Part shown: positions 32,324-48,340 of the stretch, piece by piece | Layout of the letters: every line of letters starts with the position of its first letter | Position numbering within the stretch: the first letter of the stretch is position 1 | Source of the DNA: an uncultured Chthonomonas sp. | GTDB taxonomy: Bacteria; Armatimonadota; Chthonomonadetes; Chthonomonadales; Chthonomonadaceae | Direction: 5' to 3' | DNA: 64,000 bases | Assembly (NCBI GenBank): GCA_903859705.1 | Contig: CAIONQ010000002.1 | Span: forward strand, 1-64,000 | Program-made: the position numbers and the translations under genes | The notes under the pieces: model-generated | The model's input: only the letters and a program-made list of their open reading frames with translations | What the model was told of the DNA's origin: nothing | The model's database searches: none

Positions 32324-33796
32324 ATGAAACCTGAACTACTTTTTGATAGATTCCGTGAGATTTCTGCCGTTCCCCGGGAAAGTGGCAATGAGGCCGGTAT
32401 GACGGCCTACTTGCAAGCGTTTGCCGCTGAACATGGGCTGGAATGCCGCAATGATGCCATTGGCAATACGGTGATTGCGGTGCCCGGACGGGGCAAGGGT
32501 GTGGGCGCAGATACCATTATTCTGCAGAGCCACACAGATATGGTGTGCGTTAAGGCCCCAGGCAGCGCACATAACTTCCTTACCGATGGCATTCAACTTC
32601 GCGTGGAACAGCGGGAAGAACACGGCAAGGTGCAGGATGTGCTGCTTGGCACCGATACCACGTTGGGGGCGGATAATGGCATGGGCGTGGCCGCAGCACT
32701 GGCTGCCGGGCTGGACCCTGCTATTGAGAACTGCCCTCCTCTGGAGCTGTTGTTTACCATCGATGAGGAGCGCGGACTCACCGGTGCAGCACAGCTGGAC
32801 CCATCCATTATTACCGGCACCTATCTGATCAACATGGATAGCGAAGAGCTGGGCGAGATATGCATTAGCTGCGCGGGCGGACGCGACATGACTTCGGTAT
32901 GGCCGTTAGTTCGCAGCGCTGCCTCCGGTGGCTGGAAGCCGATTACGGTTAGCCTAACCGGCCTTCCCGGCGGCCACAGCGGTGTGCAGATTAACGAGGG
33001 CCGCGGCAATGCGATTGCCATGCTGCTTGGTGCGATCTCCGATGCCGCGGGCACAGATGAGATTCGGGTTTCTAATATCACCGGCGGTTCTAAGCGCAAC
33101 GTTATTCCCAGCACATGTGAAGTAACTCTCTGGGCAGATGCGCCCGTGGCAGATAGAATCGCTACAGAGCTTGGCTCTGCTGCGCAGTTGGAGGCGTTTA
33201 AGTCAGCCCTGTGTATTGGGGCAGAGCTTGTAAAGGTAAGTGTGAGCACTCCCGAGCCCAACGCGGCAGGCGAGCCCATTGGCGCAGCGGAAACACGTAC
33301 CGTATTTGCAGCAATCCTGGCTGTGCCCTGGGGCCCGCAAACGATGTCCGAAGCGGTGCCCGGTCTGGTAGAAACCTCCAACAATGTGGCGGTAATCAGC
33401 ACCACAGACACGGCCATTACGTTAAGCTGCTCCACACGCTCCTCTGCGGCTGGCGCTATCGAAACGTTTCAGGATATCCACCGGCCTGCGTTGCAAGCCA
33501 CCGGCGCAGACGTAACACACAGTGATGGGTACCCAGGCTGGGAAGCAGACCGCGAAAACCCACTGCTAAAGACTGCCGAGAGCGTATTCGCCGGAGTGCT
33601 TGGCACGTCCCCGAAAATAACAGCAATTCATGCCGGGCTGGAGTGTGGAGTACTGAAAGGGATTGTGCCACGGCTGCGCATGATCTCTTTTGGACCCGAT
33701 ATCCGGGATGCGCATACCATACTGGAGCGCGTACTGCTCTCGAGCGTTCCCACCTTCTATGCATGCCTCACAGCTTTGCTGGAAGAGATGTGCTGA
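32324..33796 (+). CDS. pepD: Beta-alanyl/aminoacyl-histidine dipeptidase (M20, PepD type)
   Basis: A 490-residue cytosolic dimetal dipeptidase expected to cleave Xaa-His and other dipeptides. The M20 ligands are visible in ILQSHTDMVC, LGADNGMGVAAAL and TIDEERGLTGA (the catalytic Glu pair). The lid/dimerisation domain holds GLPGGHSGVQINEGRGNAI, and the C-terminal ligand region is ITAIHAGLECGVLKG. Start: ATG 32324 with AGGAG 6 nt upstream; the frame extends upstream without support. It converges with the amidohydrolase operon across a shared hairpin. Length and motifs agree with PepD. Confidence 0.93.
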   Translation: MKPELLFDRFREISAVPRESGNEAGMTAYLQAFAAEHGLECRNDAIGNTVIAVPGRGKGVGADTIILQSHTDMVCVKAPGSAHNFLTDGIQLRVEQREEHGKVQDVLLGTDTTLGADNGMGVAAALAAGLDPAIENCPPLELLFTIDEERGLTGAAQLDPSIITGTYLINMDSEELGEICISCAGGRDMTSVWPLVRSAASGGWKPITVSLTGLPGGHSGVQINEGRGNAIAMLLGAISDAAGTDEIRVSNITGGSKRNVIPSTCEVTLWADAPVADRIATELGSAAQLEAFKSALCIGAELVKVSVSTPEPNAAGEPIGAAETRTVFAAILAVPWGPQTMSEAVPGLVETSNNVAVISTTDTAITLSCSTRSSAAGAIETFQDIHRPALQATGADVTHSDGYPGWEADRENPLLKTAESVFAGVLGTSPKITAIHAGLECGVLKGIVPRLRMISFGPDIRDAHTILERVLLSSVPTFYACLTALLEEMC

Positions 33797-33822
33797 TAAT
33801 CCGCATCGTGTAGCTTAAGATA

Positions 33823-33859
33823 CAAAGAGGCGAGGATGCGTTGCATCCTCGCCTCTTTG
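33823..33859. terminator. Bidirectional terminator between pepD and the amidohydrolase operon
   Basis: CAAAGAGGCGAGGATGC (33823-33839) and its exact complement (33843-33859) around a 3-nt loop. It can end both converging transcripts. Confidence 0.85.
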
Positions 33860-33881
33860 CATTTTCAGGTTATGGCGCCTA

Positions 33882-35306
33882 TCAGTTGGTGCGCTGCGGC
33901 TTAATATGCTGGAAGAAGGTTGCTTTCTGCCTGTCGTACCGAAGTTTGCCGTTGATGTAGGTTTGCTCTACAAAGCTGCGATAATCCAGGGGATCTCCGC
34001 TGAGGATAAGCACATCGCCATCTTTGCCAGGATCCAGGCTACCGAGACGCTTCTCCATACCAATGGCCTTTGCGGCGGTAATGGTGATTGATTCCAGGGC
34101 TGCCTGCGCTCCGGCACCACCACGCATTACGTAGCTGCCTTCCAGCGCAAAGGTAAGCATATCGCGCCCCATTTCACCGCCAATAGAGAACGATGTATCT
34201 GGCGGAAGCACGGCAAAATTCACACCCGCTTTCGCCAGAATTCCTGTGCCCTCTGGATGGCTGCCGGTTGGGGCATTGCGGCGTTCATCTGGCATGGTAC
34301 GATCGCGCGCAGAAACCACAAGCAATGCTTTTTGAGCGGCAACCTCATCGGCTATTACCCAGGCTTCCCCAGCAGGTGAGATAACCATTTGAATGCCGAA
34401 CTCTTTAGCCAGGCGCAAAGCATAACGAATATCTGCTGTGGAGTTTGCGCTAACTCGCAGTAGCTTTTCATGCTTCAGGAGTGGCAGCACCGCATCCGCA
34501 TCCCCCGGTTTTGTGGGGGCCGTGCCCTGCTTTCCAGCCTTTTCAAACTTATCCTGAGCCTGCTGGTAATCAAACGCACGCTTTAGCTGATCGGCAATGT
34601 TGTAACGCGTGGTAAGGGTGCTGGATGTGCCGGCTGCAGCGCCACCACCCCTGCCCCCAAAGCCGCCGAAGCCGCCTCTGGCACTTTCAAGAGAAAGGGT
34701 TATAACGGTAGATTCGGCAGCGGGCATGCCATCCAGATCACCCTCCGTCATCTTCACCACAATGTTATTGGTGCTGAAGTTGCCATCTGCCGCTGCAGCA
34801 GGTGCAAACCTGCCACCGCCACCGCCACCACCGGGCCTGCGGCCACCTGCGCCCGTGCCAGAGAGATAAACCGAGGTAACACCGGATGCGGCCGCAAGCG
34901 AAACCGATAAAGAGTAAGGATCCAGAGAATCTCGCAGGCGATTGCCGGGCTGCACGGCACCACCGAGCTGGGCACCATCCGCAACAAAGCCTGGGGCTAC
35001 CACTTTGCCTTCGGCATGAACGATGGTTGCACCAGCTGGCACGGCAAGATCCGAGCCGCCAACCTTTTCGATTTTTGCGCCACGAATAATGACTACGCCG
35101 TTCTTAATAACACCATGGGTTACGGTCCACACATCGCCACCTACAATACATGTAACCGGTGCTGGCGCTGCCGCTTCCTGTGGCTTTGCAGGCGTTTCGG
35201 CGGCCGTTTCCTGAGCTTTTGCATTGCAGGCAAGCAAGCTCGCAAGCGAAAGGGCAGCAAGAACAGGGCCAGCGGGCCGGATTCGGAGGCTGCTATCAAT
35301 CGCCAT
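33882..35306 (-). CDS. Exported amidohydrolase-like protein lacking metal ligands (array member 8, last)
   Basis: A 474-residue protein with an N-terminal signal (VLAALSLASLLACNAKAQ). It has the amidohydrolase frame: N-terminal beta-sandwich strand motif GVIKNGVVIIRGAKIEKVGG, a TIM-barrel-like middle, and the C-terminal LGSLDPGKDGDVLILSGDPL. The normal PGxVDxHxH site reads APGFVADGAQLGG, so HxH is gone. The later VHA site reads RVSANSTADI, so that His is also absent. Two glycine-rich inserts (near residues 155 and 215) are unlike normal family members. Start: ATG 35306 with AAGGTGG 6 nt upstream, overlapping the previous gene by 11 nt. Probably not a metal hydrolase. Confidence 0.85.
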   Translation of the reverse strand: MAIDSSLRIRPAGPVLAALSLASLLACNAKAQETAAETPAKPQEAAAPAPVTCIVGGDVWTVTHGVIKNGVVIIRGAKIEKVGGSDLAVPAGATIVHAEGKVVAPGFVADGAQLGGAVQPGNRLRDSLDPYSLSVSLAAASGVTSVYLSGTGAGGRRPGGGGGGGRFAPAAAADGNFSTNNIVVKMTEGDLDGMPAAESTVITLSLESARGGFGGFGGRGGGAAAGTSSTLTTRYNIADQLKRAFDYQQAQDKFEKAGKQGTAPTKPGDADAVLPLLKHEKLLRVSANSTADIRYALRLAKEFGIQMVISPAGEAWVIADEVAAQKALLVVSARDRTMPDERRNAPTGSHPEGTGILAKAGVNFAVLPPDTSFSIGGEMGRDMLTFALEGSYVMRGGAGAQAALESITITAAKAIGMEKRLGSLDPGKDGDVLILSGDPLDYRSFVEQTYINGKLRYDRQKATFFQHIKPQRTN

Positions 35307-36678
35307 TGTAAACCACCTTGCCTTCCAGTACAACTTTAAGAACTCGGCTGTCGGGTTCAAAAGGCCCTGAATCCAGCAGAATGAGGTTGGCATCTCTGCC
35401 CACGGCAACGCTGCCAACCCTTCCAGAGATATTCAGCATCTCTGCCGGGGCAAGCGTTATGGCACGCAGCGCCATATCCGCATCCATACCCGCCTTTACT
35501 AACTGGCTCATCTGGAACCGGAGTGTGCGATAGCCTTCTACATCATCTGCAGTTGGCTTACAGGCAACTTTACAGCCGGCATCCAGGAACTTTGCGGCAA
35601 CATTTACCCGGTTTGTGGTGAGTGGCTCCAGCATAAGCGCTGCAGGCAGAACCACATCCTGGCTCTTTGCCCCAAGCAAGCTGGCCACTCTGTCACTATC
35701 GGGTGCCGTTAAAATGTAGATGGGTTTGAGCTTATCGAAGGAGGCAAAGAGCGGAAGTGCGTATGCCACCGAGGCATTATCCGGGCAGGCAACCATGGTA
35801 GGTATTTCGCCGTTAAATGCTTTAAGTACGGGCTGCTGCCGGGCGGCAGTGTTACCGCCAATTGGTCCAGCAGGCCCGCCACCGGGAGCACCACCTCGCC
35901 CCTGGCCGCGGCGCACCTGGCCAGGAGCCAGAGGGGGCCGTGCAGCGCCATCGCCACCAAAAATGTCTCCCATAGGATCCGCGCCGGGATCGACTGGTTG
36001 TGGCCGAGCTCCTTCGAAGGTGCTTCGGATCAGGTCCATGGTCTGGGTATTTGCAGCAAAGTGAACCGAAAGTACTGAGTTGGGGGCGATCGCCATAGAC
36101 TGGGCCGTATCGCCTGCCGGTTTGATTACTGTTCCCTGGCCAGGTATGCCGGTGCCTCCCGGCACAAGTGCCAGGGTGGTAACACCCTCGCGCGCTAGCC
36201 TGCTCCAGTTATCATCAAACGGGTAAAGCTCATCAAGCACCTTCAGGTGTGGGTTGGCCGAGGCGCGGGCCCCACCAAAACCTGCACCACCCGGCCCACC
36301 ACCCGGCCCACCGCCCGGGCCCGGTGTGGGTGTGGCCCCTGCGGCCGAAAGCCCAATTTGAGAGCTGATACCAACGATGCCTGGAATTACCGTATCGGCA
36401 CGCAGAATGGGCACTCCAAATGGCACCTTAACGTCTGCACCGAGCTTAATGATTTTGCCGCCACGGCAGAGAATAACACCATTTTGGATGATGCCGGAGT
36501 TTACCGTGATGATGTGCTTTGCCGCAATGGCAACGGTATCATCCGCAAATGGGTCCGTGAAAGTCTGCTGGCCCGCACTTGCGGCAGAGGCTGCAAAAGT
36601 AGTTAGTGCAGATAGGCCAAGGGCAGCGGCGGCACGGCGGGAGAAAACACGCGCATTTTTACGGGGCTGGGAAACCAC
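35296..36678 (-). CDS. Exported amidohydrolase-like protein lacking metal ligands (array member 7)
   Basis: A 460-residue protein with a twin-arginine-like export signal (RVFSRRAAAALGLSAL). The family sandwich motif (GIIQNGVILCRGGKIIKLG) and the C-terminal VGSVAVGRDANLILLDSG block are present. The HxH position reads VIPGIVGISSQIGLS and the later His position reads TMVACPDNAS, so no ligands remain. Pro/Gly-rich segments lie near residues 115-135 and 255-285. It starts with GTG sharing one base with the upstream stop (TAGTG) and ends 11 nt inside the next gene. An enzyme role is doubtful. Confidence 0.85.
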   Translation of the reverse strand: MVSQPRKNARVFSRRAAAALGLSALTTFAASAASAGQQTFTDPFADDTVAIAAKHIITVNSGIIQNGVILCRGGKIIKLGADVKVPFGVPILRADTVIPGIVGISSQIGLSAAGATPTPGPGGGPGGGPGGAGFGGARASANPHLKVLDELYPFDDNWSRLAREGVTTLALVPGGTGIPGQGTVIKPAGDTAQSMAIAPNSVLSVHFAANTQTMDLIRSTFEGARPQPVDPGADPMGDIFGGDGAARPPLAPGQVRRGQGRGGAPGGGPAGPIGGNTAARQQPVLKAFNGEIPTMVACPDNASVAYALPLFASFDKLKPIYILTAPDSDRVASLLGAKSQDVVLPAALMLEPLTTNRVNVAAKFLDAGCKVACKPTADDVEGYRTLRFQMSQLVKAGMDADMALRAITLAPAEMLNISGRVGSVAVGRDANLILLDSGPFEPDSRVLKVVLEGKVVYNGD

Positions 36679-38180
36679 TATTCTGAGCCCTTCCTGTTTT
36701 CAGCACCTGATTGTTCCTGGTTTTCGGTTTCGCCAGAGACTGGATCGGTTACGATAAAGCCACGGCGCACAGAGCCAGATTCCACTTTGCCATCTTCCTC
36801 TTCGCCATCCTCATCGGTAACGGCATCGTGCGAGGCAAATGGGCCAGCGCCAACGCCGCGGCGCTTTTGGCCGTGCTGATACACCAACTTGCCATTTATG
36901 TAAACGCGCTGAATGGGGTTGCGAACATCAAACAGCGATCCGTGCTTGAGCACGATATCGGCATCTTTGCCCACTTCCAGGCTGCCTACTCTATCCGCGA
37001 TGCCAATGCTCACTGCAGGATTGTAGGTAACAGCGCGCAGTGCCAGATCCTCATCCATACCCATCCGAACAGAAATAGTGCCCTGCAGAAACAGATCTTC
37101 AGCGGGAATAACGGGGCAGTCTGTATTTAGCGAAAGGGTTTGAACACCGGCATCGGCATATTTCTGCGCGATGCTGTAGAACTTGCGATCGTAGGTTTGG
37201 AACGAAAAATCGTAAAGTCGCGGGCCAACATTCACAGGTATATTGCGCTTTGCGGCCTCTTCGGCAGCTCTAAAGCCACCAAACTCGCCATGTGAGATGA
37301 TGAGGCGCACATCCATTTCATCATGGAACATGCGCATGGTTCCCATTACATCTCGTGCACCCGCAGTGTGCACCAGCACAGGAGTTTTCTTCTCGAGCAC
37401 AGCCCTCAGATTATCCAGGCCAATGATGCGGGGCGAAGGTGGGGCGGTATTGAGCACCACGTTTGGCCTGCCGTTTGCCGCGAGCTTGTTCGCGGGTACA
37501 GGCTCCCCATTCGATGCTACCGCTGCTGTGGCCTCGTAGGCTTTTGCGCGTGAGAACATCTCTCGGAGCATCCACCACATACCCATTCGGCTCAGGCCTA
37601 GATCGCCCGCCTGCCGTTCTGGATTGTATGCCTGTGCAACCTTCATAACTCCGAGCTTACGCAGGTACAGATCTTCTCTTGGGGCGCCGCCAAGCTTCCA
37701 GAGCACGCCAAAGCCAGAGTGGTTGCCGCCGCTGCCTGGGATGGTAAGCAGGGTGGTTACGCCACTGGCAATATCATCTCGAACCAGAGGATCATCCGGA
37801 TCAACGTAATCCCAGACACGAAATTCTGGATTAAGTGTGTGGACGTAATCGTGCAGGCCGGAATCGTTGCCAACATGCGCATGCAGATCAATTTGACCGG
37901 GCATCGCCCATTGATCCCGCGCATCCAGCACATCGGCATCTGCAGGGATAACCACATCCCGCTCGGAGCCAAGGGCAATTATCTTGCCGTTTTGAACCAG
38001 GATAATCCCGTTATCGATGCTGCCTTTAGTAACCGTTAAGATGCGGCCAGCGCGGATTGCCAGCGGGCGCTTCTGAGCATTGGCCGGGGCTGCGTGCAGC
38101 AGGCCGGCAGCCATGATAGCGGCTGCACCGAAGGCAGCACGTATTGTTTTATATTGAGTATCAGTGAACGCTTTTGCCAT
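36678..38180 (-). CDS. Amidohydrolase with intact metal site (array member 6)
   Basis: A 500-residue exported enzyme (signal about residues 12-36, ending APANAQ). It alone in the array has all expected ligands: His100 and His102 in DLHAHVG, His271 in VLVHTAG, His297 in LIISHGEFG and Asp354 in LNTDCPV. This pattern fits the imidazolonepropionase/prolidase-like amidohydrolases (COG1228 type), which hydrolyse cyclic amides or dipeptides. The C-terminus continues 45 residues past the usual VYINGKLVYQ end with an acidic tail (DEDGEEEDGKVESG). It overlaps the upstream gene by 20 nt and the downstream gene by 1 nt. The natural substrate is unknown. Confidence 0.9.
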   Translation of the reverse strand: MAKAFTDTQYKTIRAAFGAAAIMAAGLLHAAPANAQKRPLAIRAGRILTVTKGSIDNGIILVQNGKIIALGSERDVVIPADADVLDARDQWAMPGQIDLHAHVGNDSGLHDYVHTLNPEFRVWDYVDPDDPLVRDDIASGVTTLLTIPGSGGNHSGFGVLWKLGGAPREDLYLRKLGVMKVAQAYNPERQAGDLGLSRMGMWWMLREMFSRAKAYEATAAVASNGEPVPANKLAANGRPNVVLNTAPPSPRIIGLDNLRAVLEKKTPVLVHTAGARDVMGTMRMFHDEMDVRLIISHGEFGGFRAAEEAAKRNIPVNVGPRLYDFSFQTYDRKFYSIAQKYADAGVQTLSLNTDCPVIPAEDLFLQGTISVRMGMDEDLALRAVTYNPAVSIGIADRVGSLEVGKDADIVLKHGSLFDVRNPIQRVYINGKLVYQHGQKRRGVGAGPFASHDAVTDEDGEEEDGKVESGSVRRGFIVTDPVSGETENQEQSGAENRKGSE

Positions 38181-40698
38181 CGTACACCAGCTTTCCATCC
38201 ACAAACACAGCCTCTACATGTGAAGTGAGTTCCAGTGGATCCCCACTGAGAATTACCAGATCAGCATCTTTGCCAGAATCTATGCTGCCAAGCCTGCCTT
38301 CTACATGCAGTGCTTCTGCAGGAGACAGCGTGATCGCCCTCAGTGCATCCTGCGGGTTCAGGCCCTGGCGTGCAGCGCTGGCCGCATTTAATCTCAAGAA
38401 CCGCGTGCCAGAGGCGCTGCCGCTTTGCAGAATAACCTTTACACCTGCATCTGCCAGCACCGCGGCGGTGTTGATGGTGGCACCATGATCTGCACGGAGA
38501 ACACCTGGGCCGGAAGCAACGCTTACACCGCGCTTTCTGAGGTCTTCCGGAATGCGGTAGGCATCCGCAGCACCGAAGAGTGTAACTGGCAGATCGGCAC
38601 CATCTCGGAACGCTTTGAGCGCATTCAAAATCTCATCTGAACGCGAAGCATGAACAAGGGCAGGGATATCGTGTTTAAAGAGGCCCAACAGGGCATCCAT
38701 ATCCTCATCTTGCGCAACCTCTTGCGGTTCCGCAGGCAGTTCCTTTTTGAGCCGCCTGGCCTCATCACGATCAACTTCCCACTGTTTGTGCTCTCGCACG
38801 TAGAGAGTGCGGCGCTGAAGGTAGGACTTTGCTCCCGCCAGCATCTCTTCCAGTGCCCAGGGCTGCGCCATGCGCGGGCTGCCACCCACCGCATTGAATA
38901 CAATAGCGGCGGCATCGCGAACTACGCGAGACTTTGGCCCATCGGTACTATCTGGCGCATCCACGGTTTTCAGCAGGCTGGCGGTGCCGGAGATGGCTCC
39001 GGAGGCAGGTGGCGAAAGGAGAATGCTGGTAACACCGGAAGCCAACGCCTCGGCGAGCGCTGGATCATGCGCCCTTAACGCCATGTAAAGCCTGGTTTTT
39101 CCAGATATTGGTCCTGCAACTGGCGCTCCAGGCACGGCCGGGATCGGCTCAGAATCTGTGTGAAGGCCAAGGTAGCTTCCGCTATCGATGATGCCCGGAA
39201 TGATTGTGGACCCCGGTTTATCGATGAGCTTGGCTCCCGGTGGAACCTCACCATCCGTGCGGATGCCTACAATTTTGCCGCCACGAACGAGCACAACACC
39301 ATTTTCGATAATGCCATGAGATACGGTGTATACGCGCTTAACTCGAATGGCCGTTAGCCCTGCAGCCGAGGCATCACCATGCTCATAGGCAAGTTTGCCA
39401 TTAACAAGCGCCAACTCTACATGAGAGCCCCCTGCCAGGGGTTCTCCACTCAACACCAGGATGTCTGCGTCTTTGCCTTTTTCCAGGGTTCCAACGCGAG
39501 AAGATACCCCGAGCGTTTCCGCAGCCGATCGAGTGATCAGGCCAAGAGCTTCCTGAGGAGTTAGCCCCTGCCCAACCTGAGCTGCTGCCGCGCCGAGCAG
39601 ATCGTTAAGCAGGCTGCCAGATGCAGGCATTAAAGCGGTTTTTACCCCGGCATGCACCAGGCGGGCGATGTTATCGGCACTCTTCTTACCGCTCAGCGAT
39701 TCCCGAGCAAGATCCTCACCGATGGACGCTGCAGGATCAATGGGCGTGGAAGCAACAACGGGAACGTGCCGCGCCGCAATCTCTGCGGCTATTGTTCCAC
39801 CCTCTGCCACACCTTCCAGCACTATCGGAATACGCTGTTCGGCTGCAAAGCGGAGAGATGCACGAATTTCTGAAACGGTATCGGCATGAATTCTAAGTGG
39901 GTATGTGCCCCGCAGAATATCGACAAGGGGAGCCAGCTTGGTTTTTCGTTCTGCTGGATGCCTGTCGGCATCCGGAGCACCAATACCAGCGGAGCGCACC
40001 GCATTGGGGAACAGTATTGCAGCTCGCGCGTCTGCGAACAGCTGGCGAAGCACCGCAAACTGGGATGGCACGGTGGTTATTAGTGGTCGCTGGGCTGGCA
40101 GAAGCGGGTTTTCTGTTGTGGGCGGAATGGCCGGCCGAAACAATGCTGGTGCACTGTGAACGGCATCTCCAATCACAACGCGCAGATCTGCGGAAGCGCG
40201 CACGGTGCGTGCCGATCGAGATCCTGCAATGGCTCCTCCTGGCTTGACAACACCTCCCTGCCCCGCAAGCAGACGATGCGCGGGTGTGGAGAGGTAGAGC
40301 GAGGTTATGCCACTTTGGAGCAGTTTTTTGCCCGAGGCGGTGAAATCATATCCATCGATTGCGCGGGCATCAGGCGAAACAGATTCGGCTGCATCTGCCT
40401 CCAGAGGAGCGGAGTAGGCGGCAACCAGCCCGGGAATGGCAATGCCGCTGCGCGCATCGATTATTCGCGCGCCGGCAGGCACTTTGATTTTTGAGGCTGG
40501 GCCAACCTCAATAACACGCCCATCTCGGATAAGCAGAATGCCATCTTTAATATCAGCACCGGTGCCGGTGATGATACGGCCGGCGTGTACAGCCGTAATC
40601 CCGACCCCGGATGGGGAGGCGGCGGCTGGCTTTGCCGATGGCGGGGGTGCGGCGATTGCGGCCGCACACAGGCCGGTTATCAGCAGATCAGCGAGCAT
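38161..40698 (-). CDS. Double-domain amidohydrolase-like fusion without HxH (array member 5)
   Basis: An 845-residue exported protein made of two complete amidohydrolase-like units. Unit 1 (about 30-440) has IKDGILLIRDGRVIEVGP and ends LEKGKDADILVLSGEPL. Unit 2 (about 450-845) has IENGVVLVRGGKIVGIRTDG and ends IDSGKDADLVILSGDPL. HxH is replaced by AIPGLVAAYSAPLEA in unit 1 and IIPGIIDSGSYLGLH in unit 2. The third-ligand His is kept in both (LRIHADTVSEI; ALVHASRSDEI). AAGGAG lies 7 nt before the ATG inside the previous gene (11-nt overlap). It probably arose by fusion of two neighbouring array genes. Confidence 0.9.
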   Translation of the reverse strand: MLADLLITGLCAAAIAAPPPSAKPAAASPSGVGITAVHAGRIITGTGADIKDGILLIRDGRVIEVGPASKIKVPAGARIIDARSGIAIPGLVAAYSAPLEADAAESVSPDARAIDGYDFTASGKKLLQSGITSLYLSTPAHRLLAGQGGVVKPGGAIAGSRSARTVRASADLRVVIGDAVHSAPALFRPAIPPTTENPLLPAQRPLITTVPSQFAVLRQLFADARAAILFPNAVRSAGIGAPDADRHPAERKTKLAPLVDILRGTYPLRIHADTVSEIRASLRFAAEQRIPIVLEGVAEGGTIAAEIAARHVPVVASTPIDPAASIGEDLARESLSGKKSADNIARLVHAGVKTALMPASGSLLNDLLGAAAAQVGQGLTPQEALGLITRSAAETLGVSSRVGTLEKGKDADILVLSGEPLAGGSHVELALVNGKLAYEHGDASAAGLTAIRVKRVYTVSHGIIENGVVLVRGGKIVGIRTDGEVPPGAKLIDKPGSTIIPGIIDSGSYLGLHTDSEPIPAVPGAPVAGPISGKTRLYMALRAHDPALAEALASGVTSILLSPPASGAISGTASLLKTVDAPDSTDGPKSRVVRDAAAIVFNAVGGSPRMAQPWALEEMLAGAKSYLQRRTLYVREHKQWEVDRDEARRLKKELPAEPQEVAQDEDMDALLGLFKHDIPALVHASRSDEILNALKAFRDGADLPVTLFGAADAYRIPEDLRKRGVSVASGPGVLRADHGATINTAAVLADAGVKVILQSGSASGTRFLRLNAASAARQGLNPQDALRAITLSPAEALHVEGRLGSIDSGKDADLVILSGDPLELTSHVEAVFVDGKLVYDGKSVH

Positions 40699-41968
40699 CC
40701 GCAGGCTCCTTGCCGGTCAGCAGTTTCTGCAGCCTGATATCGTTCTTGCGCTCGTAGGCCAGGTGGCCTTCAATATAAACGCGATCCACCCAGGTGCCGC
40801 TTGCCAGTGGATCCCCGGTTAGCAGCAGAATGTTTGCGTCTTTTCCTGCCTCCAGGCTGCCCGTTCTGGCCTCCAGCCCGATAAGCTCAGCAGGAGTGAG
40901 GGTTATAGAGCGGAGTGCCGTTGCACGGGGCACGCCATAACTAACGGCCTGAGCGGCCTGATAAAACAGGTAGCGCGATGCGAGGGATGTTGGCGCTGCT
41001 TCCAGTGCAAACTTTACGCCTGCCCGGTAGAACTCCAGAGGCAAAATGTGGCGAACCTCTTTATCCTGGTCTTCATCGGTTTCCCAGGTTACCAGTTTTG
41101 GATCCAGCACTACGGACAAACCGGCCTTAGCGATGGCACCTGCCGTGCGGTAACAATCCGGGCCGAGCACCAGAACAACCTTGATCTTTTGGGCCATTAC
41201 AAAGTCGATAGCTCGCAAAACCTCAACATCTGATGGGCAGTACAGGAATGCCTTGAGGCGGCCGTACACCAGATCAAGCATGGCGGCCTGCTTTGGGTCG
41301 ATAGCCTCTTCAGGCTGACCGGCCTTTTTTGCCGTTGCGCGCCGCTCATCCAGCCCTTTGCGGTAGGTAGTGAAGTCCTCAAACGCACGTTTTAGTTCTG
41401 CCAGTTGGGTAATGCGGCTGCGCCCACCAGAGGGTGCGAGCGAGAGCTTCATTGCTCCGGGGCGCTTCACAAGCATGTTTTCAACGGTGGGACCAACGGG
41501 CCGCACGATGATGCCGGTTCCGCCCACCACGGTGTTATTGCCCTGAATAATCTGAAGCGTGGTAATGCCATCTCGCAGGGCATCTTCAAAGGTGATATTC
41601 ACCGGGTCGATGCCATCTGCGGTAGAAACAAATGGAACCACAGAAACGTTTTCGTTGGGTGCATCCATACCGCGTGAGGTATGTGCCTCCACGGTGCCCG
41701 GCATCGCCACATCGGCCTGAACAACAGTTGCATCGGGCGGAATCGGAACCGAAGCAGCCGGACCAACGGCGACAATTTTTCCGCCACGGATCAGGATGAC
41801 ACCGTTTGAAATCTCGGCACCAGAGATAGGTATGAGCTTTGCAGCCCGGATAGCAGTAACGGCATCCTGGGCCTGTGCTGCGTAATCTGCCAGAGAGAGG
41901 CACATTCCCGAAGCAAGAACCGCAAGCCCTATTTTGCGCGCATAGCGTGTTCGCTGGCTATTATTCAC
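40688..41968 (-). CDS. Exported amidohydrolase-like protein, incomplete metal site (array member 4)
   Basis: A 426-residue protein with a signal peptide (GLAVLASGMCLSLADYAAQA). The sandwich motif is ISNGVILIRGGKIVAVGP and the C-terminal block is TGSLEAGKDANILLLTGDPL. The first site reads MPGTVEAHTSRGMD: one His is kept and the second is replaced by Ser-Arg. The later VHA and SD sites are not recognisable (VLVLGPDCYR; FALEAAPTS). Start: GTG 41968 with GGTGG upstream, overlapping the preceding gene by 8 nt. Catalysis of the classical kind looks unlikely. Confidence 0.85.
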   Translation of the reverse strand: MNNSQRTRYARKIGLAVLASGMCLSLADYAAQAQDAVTAIRAAKLIPISGAEISNGVILIRGGKIVAVGPAASVPIPPDATVVQADVAMPGTVEAHTSRGMDAPNENVSVVPFVSTADGIDPVNITFEDALRDGITTLQIIQGNNTVVGGTGIIVRPVGPTVENMLVKRPGAMKLSLAPSGGRSRITQLAELKRAFEDFTTYRKGLDERRATAKKAGQPEEAIDPKQAAMLDLVYGRLKAFLYCPSDVEVLRAIDFVMAQKIKVVLVLGPDCYRTAGAIAKAGLSVVLDPKLVTWETDEDQDKEVRHILPLEFYRAGVKFALEAAPTSLASRYLFYQAAQAVSYGVPRATALRSITLTPAELIGLEARTGSLEAGKDANILLLTGDPLASGTWVDRVYIEGHLAYERKNDIRLQKLLTGKEPADAR

Positions 41969-43151
41969 TGAACACCACCCGTCCGTTTACCAGTACTTTC
42001 TCAATATGTGTTGTGGGATCCAGCGGATCGCCATTCAGGATCAGAATATCGGCATCCTTGCCTGCCTCGAGCGAGCCTACCCTATCGGCCACGCCGGAAA
42101 TTTCGGCAGCGGTGCGGGTAATAGCCTTTAGCGCTGCATCTGGCTTCATGCCGCCATGCACGGCACTAATGGCCGCATGGCGCAGCAGTGTTTCATCGCC
42201 ACCGCCAGTTCCGAAAGCCACACGAATGCCCGCATCTGCCAGCAAGCCTGCCGTGTTTAGCAGAGCGCTTGTGCGTTCTGGTGCGAAGGATTGCGGATCG
42301 TTGAATGGGCCGAGTACAACAGGGATATGGTGTGATGAGAGCACATCCATCACCTGTGTGGCCTCAATTGCATCATCGATCACCAGAGAGCGCACATGAA
42401 ACTCATCTGCGATGGTGACAGCCGCACGAATGTCGTTTGCAGCACGCGCGTGCACTCTCAGTGGGGCAAGGCCATTTACAACCCGCGTAAGGGCGGGGTA
42501 GCGTATGGCCTGGCTGAGGGCATGGCGAAGTTCAAATACAGATGCCATTTTGGAGTTGGGCCGCCGCAGATAGATATTGGTAAGGTTGCTGCCCGCGGAG
42601 CGAAACCCGCCATTGCCACTAAACGCATCTTCCCCAAGGGCAGCGCGCACGGCAACATTCTTGCGAACGGTTGCAGTTTCAATGGATTCTGCATCAGTTT
42701 TCACCACTGAGCACTGTCCGCCAACAATATTGGCCGAGCCCGGGGTTAAACAAAGTGTAGTGATGCCGGATTGAAGGGCGCGCTTAACATCAATGCTGTA
42801 TGGCCGATATTGCTGAACCACCCGGAACTCTGGAGTAACTTCTGCATACTGCTCATTGGCATTGTCTTTAAGGCCAATGCGCGAGTTTGCATCCACAAAG
42901 CCCGGCACGGCCGTCTTGCCACTGAGATCAACAACGCGATAGCCCGAGGGAACAGCAGAGCCCGCAGCCACAGACTTGATGATGCCACCCTCGATGAGGA
43001 TGGTGCCTGACGCAATCTCTGCCCCCTGCACCGGGATGATATGAAGCCCGGTGAGGGCGATCTTTTCTGCCTTTTGCTGCCCGGCAGCATGCAGGGCGGG
43101 CAGTAGTGCCAAAGTAGCCGGCACCCATCTGCACAGCTGTTTAAGATGCAT
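41961..43151 (-). CDS. Exported amidohydrolase-like protein lacking HxH (array member 3)
   Basis: A 396-residue protein with a signal peptide (VPATLALLPALHAAGQ). The family motifs are IASGTILIEGGIIKSVAAG and VGSLEAGKDADILILNGDPL. HxH is replaced by AVPGFVDANSRIGLK; the third-ligand His remains in LRVHARAANDI; the SD position reads VAFGTGGGDE. A perfect AGGAGG 8 nt before the ATG lies inside the upstream gene, so translation can be strong despite the 11-nt overlap. Either a pseudoenzyme or a protein using a different site. Confidence 0.85.
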   Translation of the reverse strand: MHLKQLCRWVPATLALLPALHAAGQQKAEKIALTGLHIIPVQGAEIASGTILIEGGIIKSVAAGSAVPSGYRVVDLSGKTAVPGFVDANSRIGLKDNANEQYAEVTPEFRVVQQYRPYSIDVKRALQSGITTLCLTPGSANIVGGQCSVVKTDAESIETATVRKNVAVRAALGEDAFSGNGGFRSAGSNLTNIYLRRPNSKMASVFELRHALSQAIRYPALTRVVNGLAPLRVHARAANDIRAAVTIADEFHVRSLVIDDAIEATQVMDVLSSHHIPVVLGPFNDPQSFAPERTSALLNTAGLLADAGIRVAFGTGGGDETLLRHAAISAVHGGMKPDAALKAITRTAAEISGVADRVGSLEAGKDADILILNGDPLDPTTHIEKVLVNGRVVFSE

Positions 43152-44373
43152 GGGCCGAGCCTCCTGTAACCAGTTTACCGCGCGATACTACGCCCTCTAT
43201 GCGTGTGCCGTAATCAAGCGGATCTCCATTCAGAAGTACCAGATCGGCAGGTAAACCGGGCGATATTGAGCCAGCAAAGCCTGCTGCACCCGCGTGCTGC
43301 GCAGCGGTTTGCGTGATGGCCGCCAGCGCAACTGCCTCTGGAAGCCCGAATTGCACTGCAAGGCAGGCCGAGCGCCGGAGCGAATCGGGAGCGGTTAGCG
43401 GGGCATCAGAGCAGAATGAAACCTTAACTCCCGCCGCACTTAGCTTTGCTGCGTTGCCAAGCGTTCGATCAGAATCTGTAAGTGAAAGAGGGCTAAGAGC
43501 TACCCCTACTCCAGCTTTCGCGATGTTGCCCGCGATGCGATAGGCATCCGCAGTGTGCAGCAGCACAGCTTTAAGGCCAAACCTTGCGATCAACTCGAGA
43601 GCAATCTCTGCATCATCGGCACCAGGAGCATGAAAGATACCTGGTACCTTACGATTGAGCAATGGCAGGAGCGCTTCTGCCCGCTGACTTAGCCCCGTTG
43701 GTATCCCGATAAGCGGGGTGCTTTGTGTGGTACTGCTAACTCCAAGCCCACTCTTAGCTGCGGTAAGCGCCTTACCGAACAGCACGGCGGCACCATCTCG
43801 GGATGTTGGGTTTTTATCGGCGGCGGCGGCATCTGCAGAGACGGATATTTTCTGGGCAGCATAACTCGCAACAACTTCCGATGTACTTCCGAGATGAACG
43901 AGCCCGGCCTTGCCTGCAAGTACCCCGGAGTTACCAGGGGCAACAAGCGCGGTGGTTATGCCCGCTGCAACTGCTGCCAGAACATGCCGATCATCCGGAA
44001 CAAAAGCGTCCAATGTCTGAAAATCTGGAGTCACGGCATCTACGGGTTCGCTGTTCTGGCCGTACACTCCAAGATAGGAGTGCGGATCTACCAGGCCCGG
44101 AATTACGGCCGCAGCATGCAGCACCTTTGCACCAGCTGGCACCGAGAGCCCGGCACCCACGGAAGCGATGCGCCCACCACGGATGATAACTACGGCATTC
44201 TTAATACCAGGGCTGCTAACCGGGTAAAGAACATCGGCCCGGATGGCGATTACGGAAGCGGCGGCATTTGCAATGCCATCTGCTGCAAGGGTGAGCATCC
44301 CCGCTGCGGATAGACCGAGCAGATTGCGCCGAGTAAGCGGGCTATTGCCCACATTGGGGTTATAGTGCGCCAT
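43141..44373 (-). CDS. Tat-exported amidohydrolase-like protein, four of five ligands kept (array member 2)
   Basis: A 410-residue protein with a classical twin-arginine signal (LTRRNLLGLSAAGML), which implies export in a folded, possibly metal-loaded state. The first site reads IPGLVDPHSYLGV: His98 is present but the second His of HxH is Tyr100. His248 (GIFHAPG), His273 (LLHTADAY) and Asp323 (FCSDAPL) are in place. It is thus intermediate between the intact member 6 and the stripped members. Start ATG 44373 after GCAGGTAT; an in-frame extension to 44457 is rejected because it precedes the Tat signal. Overlaps: 14 nt upstream, 11 nt downstream. Confidence 0.87.
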   Translation of the reverse strand: MAHYNPNVGNSPLTRRNLLGLSAAGMLTLAADGIANAAASVIAIRADVLYPVSSPGIKNAVVIIRGGRIASVGAGLSVPAGAKVLHAAAVIPGLVDPHSYLGVYGQNSEPVDAVTPDFQTLDAFVPDDRHVLAAVAAGITTALVAPGNSGVLAGKAGLVHLGSTSEVVASYAAQKISVSADAAAADKNPTSRDGAAVLFGKALTAAKSGLGVSSTTQSTPLIGIPTGLSQRAEALLPLLNRKVPGIFHAPGADDAEIALELIARFGLKAVLLHTADAYRIAGNIAKAGVGVALSPLSLTDSDRTLGNAAKLSAAGVKVSFCSDAPLTAPDSLRRSACLAVQFGLPEAVALAAITQTAAQHAGAAGFAGSISPGLPADLVLLNGDPLDYGTRIEGVVSRGKLVTGGSAHAS

Positions 44374-45697
44374 ATACCTGCACCCCCCCAACAAATACCT
44401 GGCTGACATGCGTTTGCGACCGGAACGGCGAGCCTGTAAGCACCACGAAATCGGCATCCTTTCCAGGTTTCAAACTTCCCACTTTTTCGCCAACACCCAG
44501 CATTTCGGCGGCATCCAGCGTTACCGCTTTTAGTGCGGCATCTTCGCTTAGGCCAGCCGAAATTGCCATGCATGCCGTTTGCAGCAGGAAGCGAGAGGCT
44601 ACACCACTGCTGCTTCTGGCCGATACTGCCAACTTAAGGCCGGCCTTTGCGATACCTGCCGCTCCGGTTGGGCTATACAGATTGGATTCGAGTGTGGGGG
44701 CCCCCTCGGCACGCATTGGCGACCAGATAATGGATACCCCGCGTGACTTGATCTGGCTGAGAACTAAATCGGCTTCCTCTGGAGACTCAAGAATGAGTTT
44801 GAAGTGGAACTCATCCTGAAGGCGCAGAGCATTCAGAATATCATCGGATCTATGGGCTTCAATACGTACAGGTATTTCGCCCTTTAGTGCAGCTGCCAGC
44901 GTTTCCTGAATTGGCTGTGTTCTGGGTGCCGCCGATTGCTGTGGGCGCGGCCCCTGGCCACCACGTGGAAACTGGCGACGCTGTGCCATATCTTCGGTTG
45001 CAGCATCGGGCTCTGGCTCACGCGCAGCAGGGCGCGGCGGCCCACCGGCGGGCGCTGGCTGGGCTGCTTTCTTTTCTGCCTCGGCCTTTTCCTGTTGTTT
45101 TAGGTAGTTCTTAGCGGAGGCAAATTGAGCGCGCAACGCCTGGTAGGATGCAAGCCTATCCAGAGAGGAAGAGCGGCCAGCAGATGAAACACCGAGCGTC
45201 ATCTGAAGGCCAGCCTTCTGCTTAAGCGCCGTTTCAAATATTGGCGCAACACCTTTTGTTGTTTCGGCGGTAGGAAGCTGAAGCTTAACCACGCCACCGA
45301 GGCCACCACGGCCGCCCGGCGAAACATATACCGTGGTTATCCCGCGCTGCAGTACCTTTGCGGCATTCTTATCAAAAGGATCGATACCATCCAGCACATT
45401 TTGATCAGGACTGGCGGCGCCCCCAAACGTCTCCTCTGTGATGAACAGCGACGAAGACGCATCCACGAGGCCCGGTATAACCGTTGCCCCATGAAGATCT
45501 ACACGCCGTGCGCCGGGAGGGATGATGGGGCTCTTTCCGACAGCGGTGATTTTGCCGCCGGAAACTATGAGGGTGCCATCGGTTATGGGGGCTCCGGAAA
45601 CGGGATAGATTCTGGCGTGCACATACGCAACCGGAGAATCTGCATGTGCAGCAACGCCACACACTAATCCCGCGAGAGCGAAGATTTGTTTTATCAT
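44360..45697 (-). CDS. Exported amidohydrolase-like protein lacking HxH (array member 1, first gene)
   Basis: A 445-residue protein with a signal peptide (IFALAGLVCGVAAHA). Sandwich motif ITDGTLIVSGGKITAVGKSP; C-terminal VGSLKPGKDADFVVLTGSPF. HxH is replaced by VIPGLVDASSSLFIT; the third-ligand His is kept in VRIEAHRSDDI; the SD position reads LAVSARSSSG. A charged and Pro-rich insert (about residues 190-265: KQQEKAEAEKKAAQPAPAGG and RRQFPRGGQGPRPQQ) interrupts the barrel. It opens an eight-gene overlapping unit. No good ribosome site is visible before its ATG. Confidence 0.85.
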   Translation of the reverse strand: MIKQIFALAGLVCGVAAHADSPVAYVHARIYPVSGAPITDGTLIVSGGKITAVGKSPIIPPGARRVDLHGATVIPGLVDASSSLFITEETFGGAASPDQNVLDGIDPFDKNAAKVLQRGITTVYVSPGGRGGLGGVVKLQLPTAETTKGVAPIFETALKQKAGLQMTLGVSSAGRSSSLDRLASYQALRAQFASAKNYLKQQEKAEAEKKAAQPAPAGGPPRPAAREPEPDAATEDMAQRRQFPRGGQGPRPQQSAAPRTQPIQETLAAALKGEIPVRIEAHRSDDILNALRLQDEFHFKLILESPEEADLVLSQIKSRGVSIIWSPMRAEGAPTLESNLYSPTGAAGIAKAGLKLAVSARSSSGVASRFLLQTACMAISAGLSEDAALKAVTLDAAEMLGVGEKVGSLKPGKDADFVVLTGSPFRSQTHVSQVFVGGVQVYGAL

Positions 45698-45931
45698 GTC
45701 AGAGGCAGATCTGGAACGAACTCAGAGTACAGATTCATGGCAGAAGCGATGCCATGTTCACACCGACCGTACTTCGGGCATCATCCTGATGCCCTCGGCA
45801 CAACATTCCGGTACAGCGCTGTTTTCTGGAATGGCGAGAGGATGTCCTTATCCAGGACTCAAAACCGCCATAGGATACAACTACTGTTAACCAAAATCCT
45901 TCTGTGTTTACGGGTATTGGCATTATGCCTA

Positions 45932-48340
45932 TCACTGTTTAGGTGGCCCATATGCCTGTAGCTCCGCACAGCTCGTAAAGTTCTGAGCAGGGTTATCTCC
46001 TGAAGAAGGTTTGCCCCCAATGCGCACAGCATAAACGCGAATGGAAGGGAATGTAAGTTCGAACTTCTGCCCGGGAGTTAATCCGGCAGAATTGGTATCC
46101 GTTGTGTGCGGGTAGCTTTCCAGCGTTGCAACCGGGGTCCAGGGTCCATTAATTTCCGTCTGAACCTCGACCGTTGGTTTACCACGGTTTGTATCGAACC
46201 AGCCGCCATCGTGAAATGTCTTGCCGTGCATAAACACCACCCTGTCGATTGTTACAGGTGTAGTGCGTGAGAGGGCATACCAATCCCGTTTCTCAAGGCT
46301 ACCGTTAAATGTAACCCGGTAGGTGGTGGGGTCATCATCCGTGATATCGCCATCAGCATTGCCCGTTCGGGAAACGGTAACCAGAGCCCCTGCAAAAAGA
46401 GATGCAGAAACGCGCTGTTTAGCGCCAAATCCTGGCCGCGCAACCCATACCGAAAACTGGCTTCTGCCATCCACGCCGGCTTCAGCGAATGGAGAGAGGT
46501 AAGCCGTTCCGGGCTTAATATCGATGCCGTACTTCACATCTGCCTTCAAGATGAGGCTACAGTATTTTGCCGCAGAGCCAAGCCCCTCGCGCTCTTTAGC
46601 TGTAACAGAGCGCAGGTGCAGGCCGGATACAGTTTGCGAAGCCAGCTCCACATTCTTGAGCATGCCCAGGTTTGGATTGAGGGCAGAATCCAGGGCAAAG
46701 ACAAGTGGGCCATGGGTGATCATAGCGCGTTTTGCCTCGGTGCCCTTGCCTGCCACCAGCTTTGTTTCTACCGGGAGATCAAGAACAACCGTATCGCCTC
46801 GGTGCCAGTTGCGGCGGATCTCCAGAAAGCCATTAACCAGCCTGGGTGCGGCAATGGCTTTGCCGTTAACTGTGGCACGCCAGCCTCCGTTCACAGCAAA
46901 GGCAGGTATTCGCAGGCGCAATGCGAAGTTAGAATTCAGCGCGTTCGGCCGTACGTTGAACTCAACTCTGCCCTCCAGGGGGTAGGCAGTTTTTTCAGTT
47001 ACAGTTACGGCACCCGCCCCTGGCAGCGAGGTGGTTACGGTGCCGGCGTTGTATAGCACTGCGGTGAGCGAAGGAGCACCACTACCAGAGGTCATCCAGC
47101 TGAACTCTGGCAGCAGGGCTACCCCGCGCGGGCCGCTGGAATGGCAGCACGTGGTGTAGTTATCATACTGTTTACGGCCATCCAGCGGGGTGTAGTAAAC
47201 CCAATCGCCGCCGTAGGGCCGCTGTGCAGCAAACAGGTGGTTGTAAACCGAGCGCTCCACTTCATCGGCAAACTCAGATTTGCCAAGCAGCCGAAGCAGC
47301 TGAAGGTTCATCTGCTCCCAGGTAACGGTAACACAGGTTTCGCAGATATTGGCGGCGTTTCCGGGCGGGAACACCCCGTTCTCCTGAAACACTTCATAGG
47401 AAGATGCACTGCCGGTTGGGTAGAGGCGGTTGGAGGTGATATCATTCCAGGCAATCTGCATATCCTTAAGGAGGCGGGTGTCTCCGGTGATACGGTACAG
47501 CTCCAGCAGGCCATTGAAATTAGATGTCATCTCATACGCTTTGCCATTGGCAACACGGCGCACAGAGTGAGTTTTTTCCAGCGATGCCAGTACGGCCGGG
47601 CCGCCGGTAGTATCGTAATTCTTAACAATGTAGCGCGCGAAATTAAGGTAACGGGCATCGGCCGTGGCGCGGTACAGCAGCAAAATGGGCTCCAGAACGC
47701 TATCTGCTGCCATGCCCATGTGCTCACCAGCGCGATTAATATCTTTTTGGCCCGGCCCAAAGCCGAAAGTGTGAATTAAGAGATCACCCATGCGCTTAGA
47801 TGCCTCAAGCGCGGGCACACTGCCAGTGTACTGGGCATAGGTTAGCAGGCCAATAATATTGTATTTGTGCACCCACACATCCCAGCTGGTCCACTTATGC
47901 TCCGGCACATAAGAGCCAAGATAGCCATCTGGTTCCTGCGTTTTCAGGAGCCTACCAACTACCCTATCCATCATTGGTCTCAAGCCGGTATCGTGATTTG
48001 CTCCCCGGGTAAGCGTGGTTGCCCAGGTAAGGGTTGCAGCATGCAGCCATTTGCCCACATGCTCACCTGCCCAATCCTGATGGGGTGTTGTGCGGCGCTC
48101 AAAGCAATCCAGCAGCTCGTTTTCATCCACCTTACTAAGTCGCGCCTGTGCGTTAAGGTCCCAGCGTTGGCCAATAAGCCCGCCTGTAAACTTTGCCTCG
48201 CCGGGTTTAAGGGGGTTTAAGGCATCGTTGACAACTGCTGTATTTGGCCTGGCAAACCCGGCCGGGTTTTGCTGGGCGGGTGCAGCGATGGCAGCAAGAG
48301 TGATTGTTGCAGCGACGAGTGGAATATTCACGCATTTCAT
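45932..48340 (-). CDS. GH127-family (DUF1680) beta-L-arabinofuranosidase-like protein
   Basis: An 802-residue exported glycoside hydrolase. After a signal peptide (PLVAATITLAAIAAPAQQ) comes the alpha/alpha-barrel of GH127. Catalytic-site elements are the Glu and Cys in ICETCVTVTWEQ (about residue 331) and the Cys pair in TTCCHSSGPRG (about 397), matching the Cys/Glu zinc site of GH127 arabinofuranosidases. C-terminal beta domains follow, the last resembling a discoidin-like fold. ATG 48340 has GGAGA 9 nt upstream; an extension to 48427 is rejected. It lies downstream of the LacI-prepilin-lipoprotein genes and acts on plant-type arabinose-containing glycans by inference. Confidence 0.9.
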   Translation of the reverse strand: MKCVNIPLVAATITLAAIAAPAQQNPAGFARPNTAVVNDALNPLKPGEAKFTGGLIGQRWDLNAQARLSKVDENELLDCFERRTTPHQDWAGEHVGKWLHAATLTWATTLTRGANHDTGLRPMMDRVVGRLLKTQEPDGYLGSYVPEHKWTSWDVWVHKYNIIGLLTYAQYTGSVPALEASKRMGDLLIHTFGFGPGQKDINRAGEHMGMAADSVLEPILLLYRATADARYLNFARYIVKNYDTTGGPAVLASLEKTHSVRRVANGKAYEMTSNFNGLLELYRITGDTRLLKDMQIAWNDITSNRLYPTGSASSYEVFQENGVFPPGNAANICETCVTVTWEQMNLQLLRLLGKSEFADEVERSVYNHLFAAQRPYGGDWVYYTPLDGRKQYDNYTTCCHSSGPRGVALLPEFSWMTSGSGAPSLTAVLYNAGTVTTSLPGAGAVTVTEKTAYPLEGRVEFNVRPNALNSNFALRLRIPAFAVNGGWRATVNGKAIAAPRLVNGFLEIRRNWHRGDTVVLDLPVETKLVAGKGTEAKRAMITHGPLVFALDSALNPNLGMLKNVELASQTVSGLHLRSVTAKEREGLGSAAKYCSLILKADVKYGIDIKPGTAYLSPFAEAGVDGRSQFSVWVARPGFGAKQRVSASLFAGALVTVSRTGNADGDITDDDPTTYRVTFNGSLEKRDWYALSRTTPVTIDRVVFMHGKTFHDGGWFDTNRGKPTVEVQTEINGPWTPVATLESYPHTTDTNSAGLTPGQKFELTFPSIRVYAVRIGGKPSSGDNPAQNFTSCAELQAYGPPKQ

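Follow-up and report, generated by a model that had tools for sequence, protein, structure and literature searches.

A conserved array of nine amidohydrolase-fold domains in which only one position keeps a complete metal site

Why should a bacterium carry, side by side, nine domains of one enzyme fold when only one of them retains a complete metal site? The question is raised by positions 33882-45697 of the window (the whole stretch of 64,000 nucleotides from an uncultured Chthonomonas sp. analysed here), where eight open reading frames on the minus strand encode nine amidohydrolase-fold domains. An original prediction, made from the sequence alone, had described nine amidohydrolase-type domains in one overlapping run, and had suggested that the loss of the metal site in most of them reflects selection for a non-metal role.

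The positions of the array are numbered in order of transcription, and the eight genes (g1 to g8) are all read from the minus strand. Position 1 (P0008, 44360-45697) is the first array gene and is followed by position 2 (P0007, 43141-44373), which overlaps it by 14 bases, position 3 (P0006, 41961-43151) and position 4 (P0005, 40688-41968). The next reading frame (P0004, 38161-40698, 845 amino acids) holds two domains, 5N and 5C, giving a total of nine. Position 6 (P0003, 36678-38180), position 7 (P0002, 35296-36678) and position 8 (P0001, 33882-35306) complete the array, and all frames are open. Using the most plausible starts, with better-placed ones for P0007 at 44373 and for P0001 at 35306, neighbouring genes overlap at all seven junctions by 1-20 bases each. 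The curated cut-off of Amidohydro_1 (PF01979) was passed by all eight proteins and that of Amidohydro_3 (PF07969) by seven, and the predicted overlapping run of nine domains held. In most array members it is the C-terminal part that the Pfam matches cover, which agrees with divergence of the metal-binding half. A C-terminal block of the type GSLxxGKDADxxxLxGxP had been claimed for all members; this held only in part, P0002 having GSVAVGRDAN and P0007 GSISPGLPAD.

A hydrophobic export-type leader is found on all eight window proteins, being Tat-like in P0007 and perhaps in P0002, and across the relatives such leaders are seen at nearly all array positions. Between the end of the array and a converging dipeptidase gene lies an inverted repeat with 26-base arms and a 3-base loop (33814-33868), which is likely to be a two-way terminator closing the array unit against that gene. 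Scans for promoters and terminators performed no better than on shuffled sequences.

In the alignment of the nine window domains, the five metal ligands, located at the HxH motif, the beta-5 His, the beta-6 His and the beta-8 Asp, are complete only in P0003 (DLHAHVG, with His100 and His102, and further His271, His297 and Asp354). Within the window the claim that HxH is intact only in this gene, together with His271, His297 and Asp354, thus held. The motifs quoted for the other domains were all confirmed, namely DASSS (position 1), DPHSY (2), DANSR (3), EAHTS (4, with Tyr at beta-5), AAYSA (5N), DSGSY (5C), GISSQ (7) and ADGAQ (8). That only one member keeps the metal site is correct for the full site and has to be refined for P0007, the least degenerate inactive member, in which a Tyr replaces the second His of HxH and the other four ligands remain (H,Y,H,H,D). 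The beta-5 His is retained also in P0006 and in both halves of the P0004 fusion. The inactive window domains are 25-28% identical to the active one.

The active protein was matched in 4 of 291 genomes of Armatimonadota (E 1e-45), and in all four the same array surrounds the active gene. Besides the window's genome these are G014, from another genus of the same family, where the array is split over contigs, and G023 and G275 from two other families. The array is also larger in reach than the original prediction could see, since GTDB species genomes scanned with an alignment of the active subunit revealed it in many Planctomycetota. There, 105 of 392 evenly drawn genomes had an active-subunit match (E 1e-70), or about 100 without module-type hits, i.e. 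approximately a quarter. Each of 20 genomes sampled from those 105 carried the array, or as much of it as the contig could contain, and in most of them there were exactly nine domains with a single HHHHD site; in the divergent loci of this sample the first two or three positions were labelled with low confidence, gene number and order still fitting. Domains were assigned to positions by best match, and the order 1-2-3-4-5N-5C-6-7-8 was found without exception in 29 loci from two phyla, allowing for contig and fetch ends (L122 is the same locus as L044, one genome being present in two collections). Chance is excluded because the same order recurs in dozens of genomes.

Records L063 and L058 also carry the array. 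The latter is titled Flavobacteriales bacterium MAG_34, its array genes are 94-97% identical in protein to a Planctomycetota array, and its contig has probably been mis-binned. Most genomes surveyed are metagenome-assembled. The collection scan relied on two short peptide patterns, so that phyla beyond Armatimonadota and Planctomycetota are not covered conclusively. TrpD-like, MOSC and phospholipase-D genes are conserved neighbours of the array in Planctomycetota; the GH127 and dipeptidase neighbours of the window were sought beside other arrays and not found, and gene neighbours are uninformative on function. In G014 a caspase-like reading frame (peptidase C14 type, by motifs only; L033 5313-7634) lies directly upstream of the array.

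All five ligands are present in 79 of 79 position-6 domains and the full set occurs at no other position; in a larger set of 103 position-6 domains the four His and the Asp are invariant. The closest exceptions are the 5C domains of G014 and G023, where HSH is present without the other ligands. The ligand losses are position-specific. At position 4 the first HxH place is His in 21/24 domains and the second mostly a small residue, while beta-5 is Tyr in 20/24 and beta-6 is Leu, Ile or Val. At HxH, Tyr-x-Arg is found at position 7, where the beta-8 Asp remains in 25/30, and Ser-x-Arg is the commonest form at position 3. The partial site of position 2 is not kept across genomes. Every inactive position has its own conserved polar residues, among them one conserved His and one conserved Cys at position 4. 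A conserved alternative set of three or more His or Cys was looked for at the inactive positions, and none was found. Two observations named beforehand as refuting the prediction, alternative metal ligands in every member and relatives in which all members keep HxH, were accordingly not made. Most of the array genes that carry the annotation 'amidohydrolase' do not encode metal hydrolases.

In both phyla, domains 5N and 5C form one protein at every locus where the two are readable, and neighbouring positions are also fused elsewhere, 1 with 2 in four loci and 7 with 8 in one. An apparent fusion of 3 with 4 in L044/L122 was set aside, the locus containing a run of unread bases. In many Planctomycetota position 6 is present in three to five tandem copies (L045, L047, L049, L055, L057, L059, L064 and L066) of two diverged types, with HTQ versus HTAG or HCAG after beta-5; the inactive set stays at eight domains.

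A second, paralogous locus in the window's genome (L001 5880-10317; G000:C76:61879-66316) encodes a 560-residue inactive protein followed by a 921-residue fusion of an active domain (HSH,H,H,D) with an inactive one. This module belongs to the same superfamily branch as the array and places its active domain, fused to an inactive one, beside a further inactive gene, but it has three domains rather than nine, and these form clades of their own in the domain tree. Modules of this type are found in several other genomes of the family and such pairs also in Planctomycetota, so the pairing of active with inactive domains is common in this branch and the array is its extreme form. In a Ruminococcaceae genome (L069 8717-11164) there is a tandem pair of related proteins in which one member has the complete metal site and the other lacks part of it, possibly a simpler pairing of this kind in Bacillota.

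Positions 6 and 4 occur together in 97 of the 392 Planctomycetota genomes; the thresholds applied leave 8 and 5 exceptions. The exceptions that were inspected consisted of contig ends (L121, L136, L139, L140, L141, L148), a broken frame (L125) and loci of the module type (L142-L144); for G389, G472 and G476 the judgement rests solely on partial matches or on coordinates close to a contig end. G005 belongs to the same genus as the window's genome; there the orthologs of the flanking dipeptidase (59%) and GH127 (60%) genes lie side by side, about 70 bases apart (G005:C316:11295-11366, compared with 33796-45932 in the window), and the whole array is absent. Sister species of a single genus differ by the array as a whole, which is gained or lost as a block. 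An assembly or binning artefact is ruled out, both by these same-genus flanking orthologs with the array missing exactly between them and by the sister array that an independent genome from a different genus carries.

A tree built from 128 domains places the members of each array position, from both phyla, in a single clade (SH-aLRT 87-100). The distribution of the fourteen groups on this tree is explained by 13 changes, which is as few as there can be, and that of active and inactive domains by one. Since each position is its own clade in both phyla, the nine copies diverged before the lineages did and each has kept its place since. In a concatenated, midpoint-rooted tree the Armatimonadota arrays and one Planctomycetota array (L042) group among the Planctomycetota arrays. 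Transfer of the whole array between phyla would fit this tree and is a possibility only, the root not being established.

Mean identity within a position is 49% at position 4, 50% at position 8 and 47% at position 6, meaning that the inactive positions 4 and 8 are conserved like the active one, position 8 being among the most conserved inactive positions. Pairwise dN/dS (NG86) at the inactive positions is approximately 0.04-0.44 for pairs above 70% identity, usually somewhat above position 6. Values up to 0.75 in two more divergent pairs involving L045 probably result from underestimated dS, and the pair of the window and G014 is saturated. The inactive positions are under purifying selection, which supports the suggested selection for a non-metal role; a dN/dS near 1, which would have spoken for simple decay, was not seen.

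The AF2 model of position 4 (P0005; pLDDT 92.9, pTM 0.88) has 3OOQ as its best PDB match (TM 0.75/0.83), and this 'inactive' member is thus predicted to keep a complete amidohydrolase fold. In the model of the P0004 fusion both domains are well folded, their orientation to each other is not confident (pTM 0.54), and a match to 3OOQ is seen here too. This structural-genomics entry, an amidohydrolase of Thermotoga maritima with all five ligands, is the best profile match of the nine domains as well (E 3e-86). It differs from the array in being a single active protein in the crystal entry, the title of which does not state an activity. The nearest functionally named relatives of g6 are Xaa-Pro dipeptidase, Xaa-Arg carboxypeptidase Cc2672 (3MTW) and imidazolonepropionase, and to our knowledge no set of inactive paralogs lies beside any of these. 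None of the named-enzyme models tried (NCBIfam, including Xaa-Pro dipeptidase and HutI) was met by P0003, the best scoring 67 bits against a cut-off of 500.

Inactive relatives of enzymes are known as subunits of larger complexes. The aspartate transcarbamoylase (ATCase) of Pseudomonas aeruginosa needs for its activity a pseudo-dihydroorotase, an inactive chain of the amidohydrolase superfamily within the hetero-oligomer (PMC7053772); it differs from the array in having one kind of pseudo-chain, in serving cytosolic pyrimidine synthesis, and in that its active chain is not an amidohydrolase. The chloroplast Clp core contains ClpR, i.e. paralogous subunits without catalytic residues within one particle (PMC8197885). 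The RNA exosome and the proteasome beta ring likewise combine, in one particle, paralogs lacking catalytic residues with few active subunits. These three machines have other folds, whereas the array has eight inactive domains to one active in a single exported bacterial gene array, and its association is unproven. The array is a member of neither the ATCase-pseudo-dihydroorotase nor the Clp system.

The explanation that we favour, with moderate confidence, is an exported hetero-oligomer in which position 6 is catalytic and the other eight domains are pseudo-subunits. The array would then encode one exported multi-subunit enzyme built from nine diverged amidohydrolase-fold domains, with position 6 as its only catalytic subunit of the zinc type (HxH/H/H/D). 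The eight pseudo-subunits may serve as the body of the particle, may complete or mould the environment of the catalytic subunit, or may bind ligand in pockets put to a new use. In Planctomycetota with three to five active copies, these would be alternative catalytic subunits plugging into a constant frame. By analogy with the nearest characterised relatives the reaction is probably hydrolysis of a small amide, a cyclic amide or a dipeptide, an analogy that offers a lead but no test.

That the members work as one machine, and not as independent proteins, is indicated by the one-to-one orthology together with the fixed order, the co-inheritance, the gene overlap, the fusions of neighbours and the export-like leaders; these last five are shown, as are the fold, the loss and retention of ligands and the purifying selection. 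The natural fusion of an active with an inactive domain in the paralogous locus speaks for it as well. One criterion for a pseudo-enzyme hetero-oligomer, that inactive paralogs are under purifying selection and inherited with an active one, is fulfilled. Assembly, activity and the dependence of activity on the pseudo-subunits are inferred, and the heteromeric assembly around one active subunit that was originally suggested remains an inference. Against it, there is no direct evidence of physical association, gene overlap and fusions of neighbours being only indirect; the AF2 model of the fusion lacks confident packing of its two domains; the active genes vary from one to five with a constant inactive set, which a strict ring of fixed stoichiometry does not predict; and position 2 of the window, with its four ligands, may still bind metal.

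A possible but less likely alternative is that each of the eight inactive domains acts separately as an exported protein binding ligand, for the capture, sensing or delivery of related compounds, and that position 6 hydrolyses what is delivered, in which case one particle is not needed. The polar residues particular to each inactive position and the intact fold of position 4 allow that pockets persist. Under this explanation, however, single losses, duplications or reorderings would be expected and none is seen at the inactive positions, and the fusions and the gene overlap favour association. It is unlikely that some 'inactive' members are enzymes with other chemistry or fewer metal ligands, making the array a multi-step pathway of related enzymes. 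The ligands left in P0007, the conserved His and Cys of position 4 and the beta-8 Asp of position 7 speak for such a pathway; against it, conserved sets of three or more His or Cys are absent from all inactive positions, and the partial site of position 2 is not maintained across genomes.

A role as exported decoys or antigens, by which inhibitors, phages or competitors are kept from the active enzyme or the cell, would agree with the export of all members and with the fold that they have in common with the active one. Decoys should, however, resemble the active subunit in surface and pocket and change rapidly, whereas the inactive members are ancient, about as conserved as the active subunit, mutually divergent and of low identity to it, and we regard this role as very improbable. 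Roles as decoys or in ligand capture, both part of the original prediction, are thus less supported and not excluded. Decaying tandem duplicates without function are what tandem paralogs with lost catalytic residues in a single genome would at first sight suggest. This explanation is practically excluded: the frames of the window are all open, position-specific orthologs exist across two phyla, dN/dS is well below 1, and positions 4 and 8 are conserved like the active position. The tree clades, the conservation and the dN/dS reject chance tandem duplication in the same way as decay.

Returning to the hetero-oligomer, a bolder reading, which we consider about as likely as not, is an exported nine-domain particle made entirely of diverged copies of one metal-dependent hydrolase, eight of which have given up catalysis, with interchangeable active subunits in a constant pseudo-enzyme frame. 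It would be a bacterial counterpart of the exosome ring or the Clp core. No published description of the array was found in the open-access literature searched, which leaves out most subscription papers. The novelty concerns the gene system with its architecture, pseudo-enzyme subunits being known in principle. Such subunits usually occur one or two at a time, and large inactive sets beside a few active paralogs are known mainly from eukaryotic machines. The relatives offer plausible intermediates, from a single active protein (3OOQ) through the active/inactive module to the nine-domain array. If the assembly is confirmed, the array would offer, in an exported bacterial system, a compact model of the way in which inactivation of subunits gives rise to heteromeric machines.
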